Below are positions 25,485 through 29,603 of a DNA stretch of 29,654 bases, piece by piece. Both the position numbers and the translations under genes were made by a program. Source of the DNA: a virus; the IMG/VR virus record IMGVR_UViG_3300023276_000421, positions 1 through 29,654 of that record; one strand, written 5' to 3'. Position 1 is the first letter of the stretch, and every line of letters begins with the position of its first letter. The notes under the pieces are model-generated. The model saw nothing but the letters and a program-made list of their open reading frames with translations, ran no database searches and had not been told where the DNA came from.

Positions 25485-26399
25485 TTACTCGCAAAACCCA
25501 CTCATGCACCCAATTGCCTCATTAACTATTCCGTCTTCATCGGTAAAATGTCCCTTAGCTCCTTTTCCTGTCATGCTCCACTTTACAACATCATTAATCG
25601 TGCAAACCATCATTTCTCTACCATCTTTAGTTTTTATTTGCTTTGTCCTGAACCTCTCTGGTATATGACTTGCCGGGAAAAAACTTGAATACCTCCCGTA
25701 TAACTTTTCAAATTTTTCTTCTGCTTCCCTGATCATATCAATCCGATCTGGAAACTTTATTGCAATTGTCCTCACCTCAGCTTTGCGCGACATAATACAA
25801 GGGTAGCAACCGACTCTCTGAGAACCAATATCATACAACGGATTAAGAGGGAACTTATGCTTTTCATGAATAGATACAACATCGGTGTATTTCCATTTTA
25901 TAATGGGCCGCCACTGTGGATAGACTACATTAAATCCAGCCATATCCCATTCTGGCATATTCTTTCGATCTTCGCTTTCATCGGCCCTTACCCCAGAACA
26001 GCTAATGACTTCATATCCATCATATTTTAATTTTTCTATATAATCTTCTGTTGGATATATTTTTAATACCTGCGTACAGAATCTTGCTTTCGTAGATGGA
26101 AACCTTTTTTTCTTCAAAGCCAATTCATAGAAATCTAATTCAGGCTTTAACGTAATCACTGGATGAATCTCTTTATTGATTTTCTCAACGTGAGCATATG
26201 TCCAGTCGTGCTCATTTCCAGTATCGCTAAATGTGCAGATTATTTTATCCTTTGGAATTCCAGAATCATGAAGCATCCAAAGCAATAAAGCTGTTGAGTC
26301 TTTTCCGCCAGAAATCCCACAAAGATATCGCGTCTTTTCTGTTGTCCGTGGCGGCTTCATGGCCTCGCATGGGCCAAAGTCTAATAAGTCAGTTTTCAT
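25485..26399 (-). CDS. PAPS reductase-like PP-loop sulfurtransferase-family protein
   Basis: A 304-residue product from ATG 26399; a frame extension to TTG 26432 is rejected because it lies in the terminator stem. The PP-loop motif SGGKDS is at residues 30-35, then TFSDTGNEHDWTYAHV, a RFCTQVLK segment, GVRADESEDRKNMPEWD (136-152), and a GCYPC knuckle (197-201), ending CMSGFCE. Cysteines at about 108, 198, 201, 298 and 303 could hold an iron-sulfur cluster. Phage members of this family have unknown substrates; sulfur chemistry on nucleotides or DNA (DndC-like), or anti-defence, is possible. It is flanked by terminators, so it is an insulated gene. Confidence 0.85.
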   Translation of the reverse strand: MKTDLLDFGPCEAMKPPRTTEKTRYLCGISGGKDSTALLLWMLHDSGIPKDKIICTFSDTGNEHDWTYAHVEKINKEIHPVITLKPELDFYELALKKKRFPSTKARFCTQVLKIYPTEDYIEKLKYDGYEVISCSGVRADESEDRKNMPEWDMAGFNVVYPQWRPIIKWKYTDVVSIHEKHKFPLNPLYDIGSQRVGCYPCIMSRKAEVRTIAIKFPDRIDMIREAEEKFEKLYGRYSSFFPASHIPERFRTKQIKTKDGREMMVCTINDVVKWSMTGKGAKGHFTDEDGIVNEAIGCMSGFCE

Positions 26400-26416
26400 A
26401 ATTCTGTTTTCATAAT

Positions 26417-26472
26417 AAAAAACCGCCAACAATCACGACTCACGGCCACCATAGCCACATGATTGAAGGCGG
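26417..26472 (-). terminator. Intrinsic terminator between DUF4406 and PAPS-reductase-like genes
   Basis: On the minus strand CCGCC (26472-26468), TT, CAATCA pairs with TGATTG, TT, GGCGG, an 11-pair stem with a 2x2 internal loop, around a 24-base loop. TTTTTT follows (26422-26417). The terminator ends 18 bases before the ATG of the next gene, so that gene has little space for its own promoter and probably depends on readthrough or an upstream internal promoter. Confidence 0.75.
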
Positions 26473-26478
26473 GTAAAG

Positions 26479-26892
26479 TTAATTTCCTATGAAGTCAAAT
26501 CTCCATCCTGTTTTAATCGGAGTCAATGAGTATGTGTTGAAAATCGGAATCCCTAATTGAGCAGCAAGAAACACTTCTATTTTCGCTCCCCTTGACTTAC
26601 TCCACCCTTCAAGAACAACAACCATATCGCAATCAGCAACCATCTTTATATCTTTCCTCATGTAATAATCCCAATCCTCGCCGGTTCCATGCTCGGCAGG
26701 GTTCAAGACTTCATAGCCTTCCGCTCGGAGCTTGTCGGCAACCTTATTAAATGCAGGGAAGTTAAAATCTTTAATGCCTGTCATTGGGCCAGAAATGTAA
26801 ACCTTTTCCTTTTTAAAAACCCGATCATGCGTCGCCCTCTGAGCTTCGAAATCGGTGTTTCCTGTTCCTCTGTTTTTGCGTGGGTTGGTCAT
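26479..26892 (-). CDS. DUF4406 / nucleoside deoxyribosyltransferase-like protein
   Basis: A 137-residue protein. After a basic N-terminus of 28 residues comes the DUF4406 core: KVYISGPMTGIKDFNFPAFNKVADKLRAEGYEVLNPAEHG, then YMRKDIKMVADCDMVVVLEGWSKSRGAKIEVFLAAQLGIPIF. The SGPMTG turn, the D-I-x-x-V-x-x-C-D helix and the Glu106 of KIEVFLA match the nucleoside 2-deoxyribosyltransferase fold, in which the Glu is the nucleophile. Phage members may salvage or modify nucleotides. ATGA overlap with the RlpA-like gene upstream; a terminator follows it. Confidence 0.85.
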   Translation of the reverse strand: MTNPRKNRGTGNTDFEAQRATHDRVFKKEKVYISGPMTGIKDFNFPAFNKVADKLRAEGYEVLNPAEHGTGEDWDYYMRKDIKMVADCDMVVVLEGWSKSRGAKIEVFLAAQLGIPIFNTYSLTPIKTGWRFDFIGN

Positions 26893-27266
26893 TTCACCAC
26901 CTCCACTTGAGTCTCAATCCGCCCAAGATACAGAGCGCAAAGAGTTAGATCATAGAACGCCTGAATGCTCAAGTCTAAATCAGTCTTAAAATCGTGTCTA
27001 TCTGTGACCCTGACAAGGATACTTCTATCCTCATATGTGACCTTGAGGACTGTTCCAAATGGGTAATCGTAACTCGCGCAAGTATAGGCACCAGGATCGT
27101 AAGGCTTTCCGTTAGCCATTAATCGGCCCTTTAAGCTGTTAGAGTAATAAGTTGTCGATTCAGCATTACAGGCAACCCCGAATACTAGAATAGCAATCAT
27201 TAGCGTTAAATAGATTGGCAGCCAGTTACGGGACAGCCAGTTTGTTGATTTGCTTAATATTTTCAT
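26889..27266 (-). CDS. RlpA-like double-psi beta-barrel exported protein
   Basis: A 125-residue protein. A hydrophobic N-terminal segment (about 17-33, LPIYLTLMIAILVFGVA) ends in Cys33 and may be an uncleaved anchor or a lipid-type signal. The domain from about 38 to 123 has the RlpA pattern: TYYSNSLKGRLMANGKPYDP, YPFGTVLKV, ILVRVTDRHDFKTDLDLS and GRIETQVEVV. RlpA relatives cut naked glycan strands. The residue that aligns with the conserved His of an AAH-x-x-LPFG motif is Ser65 here, so activity may be lost. It has its own promoter-like site and lies far from the holin. Confidence 0.75.
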   Translation of the reverse strand: MKILSKSTNWLSRNWLPIYLTLMIAILVFGVACNAESTTYYSNSLKGRLMANGKPYDPGAYTCASYDYPFGTVLKVTYEDRSILVRVTDRHDFKTDLDLSIQAFYDLTLCALYLGRIETQVEVVK

Positions 27267-27531: not shown

Positions 27532-27744
27532 TTACTCTTTCGGTTTTAGTTTGTTGATTCTGTTAAATAAAAGTTGTTCGCAGGTTTCATGTGTTACTTT
27601 AATGTCGTTAAGCTCCTTAATGGCTTGGAGCTTTTGACATGTCTTTTTATGTTCCCTTATTGCCGTCTCAAGAGTCATAGAAGGGATTAAATCGACCTTC
27701 GTATGCTCTTTGAGGTGTTGGGCTATTGATTTAGTGCTATTCAT
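27532..27744 (-). CDS. Small hypothetical helical protein
   Basis: A 70-residue protein that is almost entirely helical (SIAQHLKEHTKVDL, LETAIREHKKTCQKLQAIKELNDIKV, ETCEQLLFNRINKLKPKE), with two cysteines and a basic end. It could be a small coiled-coil dimer. The ATG lies 8 bases inside the methyltransferase end (ATGAATAG), which supports translation by coupling. No named family or activity can be seen. Confidence 0.5.
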   Translation of the reverse strand: MNSTKSIAQHLKEHTKVDLIPSMTLETAIREHKKTCQKLQAIKELNDIKVTHETCEQLLFNRINKLKPKE

Positions 27745-28579
27745 TGTTTAATATTCTCCATGCTTTTGCCGCCGTTTGTGGGACAACCCCATTGCCCAAG
27801 AGCCTAAGTCTGTCCACCCTGTCGGAAGTCCCATTAGCTGCTCTACCCACGCTGGATTTAATTGTTCTTGGCGCTTCCCATTCGTGTTGAGGTTCTCCTG
27901 GTCGGGCTGGGTACATGCCGCAACTACATCCTCTATGTTCCCCTTCTTCCTGTCCTTCGTTGGATCGTTCCGACTCATAGCTTCGCGTGGCGTGGGCCAA
28001 TTCTTCACCTTGTTGCTCAACCCCTGCTGTTTGCTGTTCTTGCTCCTTCTGTCGCTGCAATCTGGTGTTGGCCAAGATGAATAACCTTTCTCTGCGATGG
28101 CTTGCACCGACTTCCTCCGCACTGAATATTCCTGCGTCAACTGAGTAACCCAATTCCTCCAAGTCTGATTTGACTTCTCTGAGTCCGTTATTAACGTGTC
28201 CTCTGACGTTTTCAAAGAAGCACCAAAGAGGTCTAATTGCTCGAATGTGTTCTCTGATGAAAGGCCAGAGGTGCCGGGGGTCTTTGTCTCCAAGCTGCTT
28301 TCCTGCGACTGAGAAGGGCTGACAGGGATAACCTCCAATGATTCCGTGAACTCGTCCAGAAAACTGTTTTGCAGGGAAGGTTTTAAGATCCGTCCAGATA
28401 GGTGCTGCATCCATTTTACCTTCTTCAATCTTTGCAACCAAGTTCGCTTGAGCGAAGGCTTCGATCTCCACATAGCAGACTGTTCTAGCATTGAGGCCAG
28501 CGAGTCGTAATCCAAGCTCGATTCCTCCGTAGCCTGAACAAAATGAAATAATGTTTTGGGTATTATTAACATTACTCAT
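27737..28579 (-). CDS. C5-cytosine DNA methyltransferase
   Basis: A 280-residue Dcm/M.HhaI-type enzyme. Motif I is FCSGYGGIELGL (13-24), motif IV is GGYPCQPFS with catalytic Cys86, ENV is at 123-125 (FFENVRG), HRRERLF at 161-167 matches motif VIII, and RLRLLGNGVVPQTA (257-270) matches motif X. The region between VIII and X (about 171-245) is a Gln/Glu/Gly-rich stretch with little evident target-recognition structure. That is where the overlapping frame carries its conserved motifs. It starts with ATG 8 bases inside the exonuclease end. It probably protects phage DNA from host restriction. Confidence 0.92.
   Translation of the reverse strand: MSNVNNTQNIISFCSGYGGIELGLRLAGLNARTVCYVEIEAFAQANLVAKIEEGKMDAAPIWTDLKTFPAKQFSGRVHGIIGGYPCQPFSVAGKQLGDKDPRHLWPFIREHIRAIRPLWCFFENVRGHVNNGLREVKSDLEELGYSVDAGIFSAEEVGASHRRERLFILANTRLQRQKEQEQQTAGVEQQGEELAHATRSYESERSNEGQEEGEHRGCSCGMYPARPGEPQHEWEAPRTIKSSVGRAANGTSDRVDRLRLLGNGVVPQTAAKAWRILNNE
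27748..28572 (-). CDS. Overlapping-frame phage protein (WPTP / LNPxWVExLMG family)
   Basis: A 274-codon frame in another phase, lying almost wholly inside the methyltransferase gene. Its C-terminal half matches a phage protein pattern: FGASLKTSEDT (about 116-126), SWPTPDCSDRR with a second WPTP, SKQQGLSNKV, and LNPAWVEQLMGLPTGWTDL (238-256). Its ATG overlaps the exonuclease TAA (TAATG) and GAGGA lies 7 bases upstream. Met55 (28410) after AGAAGG is an alternative start. The function is unknown; it has been seen beside or inside phage methyltransferases. The level of expression is not proven. Confidence 0.6.
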   Translation of the reverse strand: MLIIPKTLFHFVQATEESSLDYDSLASMLEQSAMWRSKPSLKRTWLQRLKKVKWMQHLSGRILKPSLQNSFLDEFTESLEVIPVSPSQSQESSLETKTPGTSGLSSENTFEQLDLFGASLKTSEDTLITDSEKSNQTWRNWVTQLTQEYSVRRKSVQAIAEKGYSSWPTPDCSDRRSKNSKQQGLSNKVKNWPTPREAMSRNDPTKDRKKGNIEDVVAACTQPDQENLNTNGKRQEQLNPAWVEQLMGLPTGWTDLGSWAMGLSHKRRQKHGEY

Positions 28580-29603
28580 TCCTCGCTCTCTCTAATTTAA
28601 TTCTCATTTCAGCCCGTGACTTATGCCAGCCTGAAATCGACTGAGATTTGATTGTCCCGTTATTTAAGCTCATCCATGCTTTAGTTCTAAAGCAATTCTT
28701 CATCTCGGTCAGATCCATGAAAAGAATTTCATTTGCAAGGGCCAAGTCATCTGGATCGGTAAACCTGACATCTGTCTCGAAAGGCTCCTGCTTTTCGACC
28801 GGGATAAAGAAGAAGTGATCAAGTGGTTTGCCCGTCACCCTTTCGACAACCTCACGATAAAGGCGATCCTGGATATAATACCCATGCTCGCCAACGTGCT
28901 TGTCGTATGATCCCGAGTCTTCAGCTGTTAGCGTGGCGCAAGTTTTGAGGTCAATCGCGATAGTATCGCCAGCCTCAACCTTTTTGTAATATGATGTGTT
29001 CGCTAATGACTCATTTAAGAACTCAGCCAAATGCGCCGAGCAAGATTCAATGAACCCGTCAAGACGAACCTGCAGCATTGTCCATCCAAGATCACATCTG
29101 AAAGTCAATTCTGGCTTGATTTCGGCAATCAAGGCCGTTGCAATCTCGCTTTGCTCGACTGAATTATTGACGTAAAATAAGGTTCTCATTTGCTTCTGGG
29201 ATAAAACTTCTTTGCCGTGTTCTTCGGCAATCGAGTTGAAATTTTCCCAAAAAACAAGCCTTGCTTCCGCTTCTGGCTTGATCGCTGACTTGTATTCATG
29301 TCTTGGTTTAGTCGGCTTCTTTGGAGCGTCAACGGGTTCAATCATGTATCGCTTTTCAAACTCTCCTTGACCTTCCAGAATCAGGCAATGACCCGCGCCT
29401 CCAAAGGTGAAATAGTCCTTTGCTTTCGGTTCTTCAATTAAAGTCTTTGTGACAAACTTCTTGTAAAAGAGATACTTGCGCTTGCGAAAATAAGACAGCA
29501 TTGAATTGCTAATTGCCTTATTTCCGTGATAAATTTCATTCGGTTCATCCTTGATGACTCCGAGCATTGGCGTTTCAGTTGGGTAGTATTTTTGTATTTC
29601 CAT
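28572..29603 (-). CDS. PD-(D/E)XK exonuclease, RecE/DUF3799-like
   Basis: A 343-residue protein of the phage exodeoxyribonuclease VIII/YqaJ-like superfamily. It opens with an EIYHGNKAISNSMLSYF lead and FTFGGAGHCLILEG (conserved His72). Then come RLDGFIE (Asp182), IAIDLKT (Asp218, Lys220) and YYIQDRLYREVV (Gln245, Tyr249), the motif series that binds metal and DNA. It resects double-stranded DNA ends for recombination with a single-strand annealing partner. No annealase (RecT/Erf) is seen in the window; it may lie upstream. The leader has TAAACAAG and a promoter-like site. Confidence 0.88.
   Translation of the reverse strand: MEIQKYYPTETPMLGVIKDEPNEIYHGNKAISNSMLSYFRKRKYLFYKKFVTKTLIEEPKAKDYFTFGGAGHCLILEGQGEFEKRYMIEPVDAPKKPTKPRHEYKSAIKPEAEARLVFWENFNSIAEEHGKEVLSQKQMRTLFYVNNSVEQSEIATALIAEIKPELTFRCDLGWTMLQVRLDGFIESCSAHLAEFLNESLANTSYYKKVEAGDTIAIDLKTCATLTAEDSGSYDKHVGEHGYYIQDRLYREVVERVTGKPLDHFFFIPVEKQEPFETDVRFTDPDDLALANEILFMDLTEMKNCFRTKAWMSLNNGTIKSQSISGWHKSRAEMRIKLERARNE

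Follow-up and report, generated by a model that had tools for sequence, protein, structure and literature searches.

A phage locus very likely to encode both chains of a two-subunit DNA (cytosine-5) methyltransferase in overlapping reading frames

Introduction

Can one stretch of phage DNA, here of 840 bases, encode two proteins over nearly its whole length, and if so, what would the second protein be? The question is raised by a viral sequence of 29,654 nucleotides (IMG/VR record IMGVR_UViG_3300023276_000421; the whole stretch is called the window here), in which a C5-cytosine DNA methyltransferase gene, alpha, shares its strand with a second long open frame, beta. An earlier note, made from the letters alone, had read the pair as true dual coding and supposed that the second protein may modulate or accompany the methyltransferase.

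Two-polypeptide C5-methyltransferases exist; one is M.EcoHK31I, which recognises YGGCCR. A 1995 paper on that enzyme is reportedly the precedent for a split methyltransferase, and the small chain of the enzyme (about 176 aa) is said to be read in a different frame from within the large gene. The window resembles this reported arrangement in that the small-subunit frame lies inside the large-subunit gene, with an overlap that is almost complete.

Results

Alpha lacks a recognisable motif IX

Alpha and its motifs lie at the following positions.

27737..28579, minus strand: alpha, predicted C5-cytosine DNA methyltransferase catalytic subunit, 280 aa (ORF call)
28523..28546, minus strand: alpha motif I, SFCSGYGG
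28310..28336, minus strand: alpha motif IV with the catalytic Cys, GGYPCQPFS
28205..28213, minus strand: alpha motif VI, ENV
28070..28099, minus strand: alpha motif VIII, HRRERLFILA
27779..27820, minus strand: alpha motif X region, RVDRLRLLGNGVVP

Alpha matched Pfam DNA_methylase (3.5e-34) and, in the PHROGs profile search, phrog_363 (1e-58), and it contains the C5-cytosine DNA methyltransferase motifs I, IV (PCQ), VI (ENV), VIII and X. The residues expected to matter most are strongly conserved: P85, C86 and Q87 are nearly invariant in relatives and invariant in a narrower set of them, E123 is invariant with N124 and V125 nearly so, and H161 and R163 are invariant. The AF2 model of alpha (pLDDT 77) has a methyltransferase fold in which residues 189-223 and 239-251 are disordered, and Foldseek matched it to M.HhaI and M.HaeIII over about 171 columns. 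The earlier note had credited alpha with all key motifs of the class. Those listed above are present, but motif IX was not recognisable in alpha, where the best window of the motif IX profile was a low-scoring non-IX stretch (6.6, versus 72 in beta); it appears to be carried by beta instead.

Beta belongs to a widespread family labelled as a methyltransferase

The second frame, in the +1 register relative to alpha, has the following features.

27748..28572, minus strand: beta, candidate second subunit, 274 aa, with MLIIPK start, WPTP units and putative motif IX; +1 to alpha
28063..28074, minus strand: first WPTP of beta, residues 167-170
27988..27999, minus strand: second WPTP of beta, residues 192-195
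27805..27861, minus strand: putative motif IX of beta, LNPAWVEQLMGLPTGWTDL, residues 238-256; overlaps the DNA of alpha motif X

Both ORFs, including the 274-codon second frame with its two WPTP units and LNPAWVEQLMGLPTGWTDL, lie where the earlier note had placed them, and the DNA for LNPAWVEQLMGLPTGWTDL does, as it had said, also encode the end of the methyltransferase, as part of alpha's GRAANGTSDRVDRLRLLGNGVVP. Beta matched phrog_1008 at 4.7e-17 in the window and at up to 1.4e-55 among relatives, and 44 of 45 aligned beta proteins matched this family. Its label, 'DNA methyltransferase', hides the fact that the family is the other-frame partner; the profile also weakly matches the C-terminus of alpha. 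A single IMG/VR scan yielded 541 stretches encoding beta relatives. The number of WxTP modules ranges from none to seven per beta and their positions differ between loci; the module containing the first WPTP of the window, WPTPDCSDRRSKNSKQQGLSN, occurs at other positions in other loci.

Beyond phrog_1008, searches with beta returned little. There was no convincing family in Pfam, NCBIfam or PADLOC. The PDB was searched by HMMER profile with three queries (beta, the IX-X segment and the IX block alone); none gave a methyltransferase, and the sole match was a weak one to a WW domain (E about 1.8). For the first 66 residues of beta we found no methyltransferase counterpart. The AF2 model of beta alone (pLDDT 59) is largely disordered; helices were predicted confidently near residues 132-161 and over motif IX (240-247), and Foldseek found no PDB fold match for the model. 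Such a poor model of the lone chain fits a partner-dependent subunit, though it is not evidence for one.

Hidden products have been described in phage methylase genes before: the ShiLan domain is an out-of-frame HNH endonuclease (PMC11855218). Like ShiLan, the window has an overlapping second product in a phage methylase gene; whereas ShiLan is inserted mobile DNA with a homing endonuclease as its product, nearly the whole gene in the window appears to be dual-coding. Beta matched no HNH or homing-endonuclease family in Pfam, PHROGs or NCBIfam, and a hidden homing endonuclease of the ShiLan type was rejected on this ground.

Paired start codons

The starts of the two frames lie within a few bases of each other.

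28570..28584, minus strand: paired translation starts; GAGGA 28584-28580, alpha ATG 28579-28577, beta ATG 28572-28570

The alpha ATG is followed 7 bases downstream by the beta ATG, which lies 7 bases after GAGGA and overlaps the TAA stop of the upstream exonuclease gene (28574-28572) as TAATG; the window sequence confirms the earlier description of these start sites, spacing and overlap included. This arrangement is a variant of an NTGTG pattern. At 85 of 87 loci with the N-terminal beta motif (MWIIPK and variants), the sequence is NTGTGG, with beta starting at NTG and alpha at the GTG two bases on, and at many of these loci that GTG is the sole start listed for alpha close to motif I. The start codon of beta is itself conserved: all 87 distinct loci with the MWIxPK motif retain one (ATG in 70, GTG in 16, TTG in 1).

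The second frame stays open and scores far above permuted sequences

The alpha and beta ORFs were paired in the +1 register at every locus examined in IMG/VR and in bacterial genomes except the fused L156 (see below), and a search query built on alpha only also recovered beta alongside. We considered the 122 distinct loci, from phages and bacterial genomes, that contain the LNPxWVExLMG block in the +1 frame. From its start to this block beta is free of stops in 120 of the 122; the exceptions, L072 (1233-1622) and L141 (1142-1474), have a stop inside beta before the IX block, with alpha open in both. Stops at nine further loci are confined to the first 30-73 codons, ahead of a later beta start; these counts rest on stop positions, while the 'late-start' label also took in loci whose profile match begins after MWIxPK. 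The earlier note had named frequent second-frame stops in close relatives as a result that would refute dual coding; such stops proved very rare.

Permuting synonymous codons within each gene predicted 927 stops in frame 2 (+1) over 126 loci, far above the 293 seen, many of which fall outside beta. For the window gene itself (identical to locus L001), one stop was seen versus about 5.6 under permutation of alpha's synonymous codons, and the longest open frame 2 in 300 permutations was 249 codons, versus 273 seen. Frame 3 mostly contains 10-30 stops, versus none inside beta for frame 2.

We then scored beta with a profile trained on viral loci against a held-out set of 19 bacterial-genome loci and one phage, each with 200 synonymous permutations. 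Held-out scores were 6.9-13.5 s.d. above the permutations. The C-terminal block of beta beat every permutation in 20 of 20 loci, and its N-terminal 66 residues beat all 200 in each of the 14 loci with full-length beta; the six late-starting loci gave no N-terminal beta signal, as expected.

Constraint alternates between the frames

We compared third-base identity between alpha and its flanking genes, using fourfold-degenerate sites where the alpha residue is conserved. For pairs with 55-65% protein identity it was 0.65 in alpha versus 0.38 in the flanks, and for those with 45-55% it was 0.58 versus 0.36. Alpha exceeded its flanks in 93% of 1449 same-pair comparisons, a count inflated by some doubled contigs, so that the pairs are not independent. 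Synonymous variation in alpha, the other quantity that the earlier note had singled out, is thus strongly reduced relative to flanking genes. Relatives with a late-starting beta provide an internal control in the non-overlapped N-terminus of alpha: fourfold identity was 0.28 there, versus 0.40-0.56 where beta overlaps the middle and WPTP parts.

Codon positions indicate which frame is held where. Across the WPTP stretch, position 1 of alpha, which is position 3 of beta, changes fastest (position 3 to position 1 ratio 0.36-0.94), and beta is therefore the constrained frame there. In the final few codons of the overlap, around motif X, this ratio rises to 5-8, and the constrained frame is therefore alpha; between these two regions both frames are held. 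The suggestion that the other frame is the constrained one opposite the WPTP half is matched by this constrained-gene pattern in beta. Its companion, that alpha is featureless there, fits a stretch that is of low complexity and fast-evolving, but not the adjoining downstream block PARPGEPQHEWEAPR, which is conserved in alpha across relatives.

Judged by sequence comparison, both frames are under purifying selection at more than 100 related loci. Stop counts, permutation scores and fourfold-site conservation all support the dual coding proposed in the earlier note.

The conserved block of beta matches motif IX

We slid a profile of the conserved beta block along whole enzymes, with p values from column shuffling. 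The best window was motif IX in M.HhaI (RKLHPRECARVMGYPDSYKVHP, 272-293, p<0.001), in E. coli Dcm (RRLTPRECARLMGFEAPGEAKF, p 0.044) and in a B. longum C5-methyltransferase (RRLTPRECERLQGFPDDYTDIP, p<0.001); in a Geobacillus HaeIIIM-like enzyme, one of the four tried, it was not motif IX (p 0.235). HH alignment of the IX-X segment with canonical enzymes aligned motif X only, and not IX. The block thus matches motif IX, an assignment that draws on the column-shuffle test and on gene architecture.

Relatives place this block in different chains. In L129, L150, L158, L160 and L163 alpha terminates shortly past motif VIII, and both IX and X are read from the overlapping frame, as in the two-polypeptide M.AquI, which is split between VIII and IX/X; WxTP units precede IX in the four AquI-like relatives that were read through. 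In L156 (1985-2944, a Pyramidobacter metagenome assembly) one chain contains motif VIII followed by IX and X, and the +1 frame still contains an open beta-like stretch with one WPTP; the fusion could be natural or an assembly frameshift error. The IX block thus moves between the chains of one enzyme, which points to beta as a subunit.

Other features of the locus and its relatives

Two plasmid loci show further rearrangements. On a Paenibacillus polymyxa plasmid (L176, 1108-2598) the motif IX stretch is tandemly duplicated in the beta frame, with stops between the copies. On a Leptospira plasmid (L173, 1372-2049) the C-terminal EPLETHKFQQWLDLHG of alpha is similar to KPLGTDKFQSWLRQLG, the tail of the beta frame in Stenotrophomonas phage S72, as though the frames had traded places through an indel.

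Several other genes of the window are also of note. Close to alpha there is a gene resembling those for nucleoside 2-deoxyribosyltransferases (26479-26892), and in coliphage N15 (L165) a DUF4406 gene is just upstream of the corresponding locus. The window also encodes a phosphoadenosine phosphosulfate reductase-like protein (25485-26432) with PADLOC matches to SspD, BrxP and DndC, which may relate to DNA modification or defence, and a second methyltransferase of the phage (17647-18864), in which a ParB-like domain is joined to a DNA methyltransferase (phrog_498, 1e-95). A small protein at 26889-27266 has an N-terminal hydrophobic stretch and matches a phage 'lipoprotein precursor' family (phrog_7930); its sequence suggests an RlpA-like domain.

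Discussion

A two-subunit enzyme encoded in overlapping frames

We consider it very likely that the locus is a dual-coding pair for a two-subunit DNA (cytosine-5) methyltransferase. Alpha would be the catalytic large domain, providing AdoMet binding, the PCQ cysteine, ENV, motif VIII and the motif X helix, and beta would supply motif IX and the variable WxTP modules, making up a small DNA-facing domain that has no counterpart in alpha. Both chains would be translated from starts a few bases apart (NTGTG in most relatives), and beta would bind alpha to form the active enzyme, for which both chains may be needed. The WxTP modules may set target specificity, and methylation may serve the phage in escaping host restriction.

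The comparison with known split enzymes is closest for M.EcoHK31I, in which the large subunit carries motifs I-VIII and X and the small subunit motif IX (PMC3404938). The window pair likewise consists of a I-VIII/X chain and a separate IX chain, a match at the level of sequence motifs only. The beta of the window differs from its M.EcoHK31I counterpart in its larger size, in a start only a few bases from that of alpha and in an overlap with nearly the whole gene; it also has extra N-terminal sequence and variable WxTP modules. M.AquI differs in another way: its small subunit comprises IX and X, whereas motif X of the window stays in the alpha frame and the overlap is nearly complete. Beta probably carries target recognition, although the predicted TRD of M.EcoHK31I is placed in the large subunit (PMC3404938).

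Nested ORFs have been annotated in several phages. Those of K1H (ORF28 in ORF29), Lily (LILY_63 in LILY_62, 'g62 internal gene') and Bloom (BLOOM_57 in BLOOM_56) are beta homologues; like beta they occupy the +1 frame of a C5-methyltransferase, and unlike beta of the window they start well inside alpha. Our search of the literature on these nested ORFs found no description of function. In coliphage N15 the C5-methyltransferase gene 58 (L165, 14529-15539) contains an unannotated +1 beta homologue (E 5e-20). A literature search likewise found no description of a full-length alpha/beta overlap with nearly coincident starts. The two-subunit split at motif IX was already known; what is new here is a beta that spans nearly all of alpha from an almost coincident start.

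Other readings of the second frame

One alternative is that frame 2 stays open merely through the amino acids and codon usage of alpha, yielding no functional product. Some beta-like similarity does arise in this way: over beta residues 67-165, permuted sequences already average 25-62 bits, so conserved alpha residues contribute to the score, and a weak beta match is also found in the +1 frame of the single-chain methyltransferase L175. The stop counts, permutation scores, fourfold sites, codon positions and start codons nonetheless all argue against it, and neither E. coli dcm nor a Geobacillus HaeIIIM-like gene has a beta in any frame. We rejected this explanation, which we regard as barely credible, as contradicted by the permutation and fourfold-site tests.

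Beta could instead be a real protein with a separate accessory role, for example in anti-restriction or in regulating the methyltransferase. The largely disordered model of the lone chain and the 66 N-terminal residues without a methyltransferase counterpart would suit this, but alpha lacks the IX-like block that beta contains, and in relatives this block shares a chain with motif X and, once, with the catalytic domain as well; we regard an accessory role as improbable. Still less probable is programmed ribosomal frameshifting from alpha into the beta region to give a fused methyltransferase, a reading that draws on the absence of IX from alpha and on the AquI-like loci, where alpha stops shortly after VIII while IX and X are encoded in the overlapping frame. 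In loci of the window type, however, motif X has returned to frame 1, so that a fusion would take two shifts, and beta keeps its own start codon at all MWIxPK loci. Beta is thus most likely a subunit of the enzyme rather than a regulator, on the sequence comparisons given here; this narrows the guess of the earlier note, that it may modulate or accompany the methyltransferase, and draws on the motif IX that alpha lacks and on its joining to X, and once to the catalytic domain as well, in relatives.

Given beta as a subunit, the variation in number and position of the WxTP units between loci suggests exchangeable recognition units. A bolder version, which we put forward tentatively and consider possible rather than likely, is that the modules serve as target-recognition cassettes that can replace one another, being shuffled among loci and positions while remaining readable in both frames; recombination would change specificity, and the NTGTG starts would set the subunit ratio. 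If true, the specificity system would be both modular and dual-coded, and we know of no earlier description of such a system.

Significance

The proposed pairing would account for a widespread phage protein family of unclear function, the beta relatives. Common 'DNA methyltransferase' annotations would take in two products, and many records annotate just one of them. Cloning a recoded alpha would destroy beta, with possible false-negative results in tests for methyltransferase activity. An overlap on the same strand that extends over some 250-490 codons, and that is maintained both in phages and in bacterial genomes with assignments to several phyla, makes the family a strong natural case for the study of overlapping-gene selection, and the occurrence of nested, AquI-like and fused arrangements within one family makes the origin of split methyltransferases testable.
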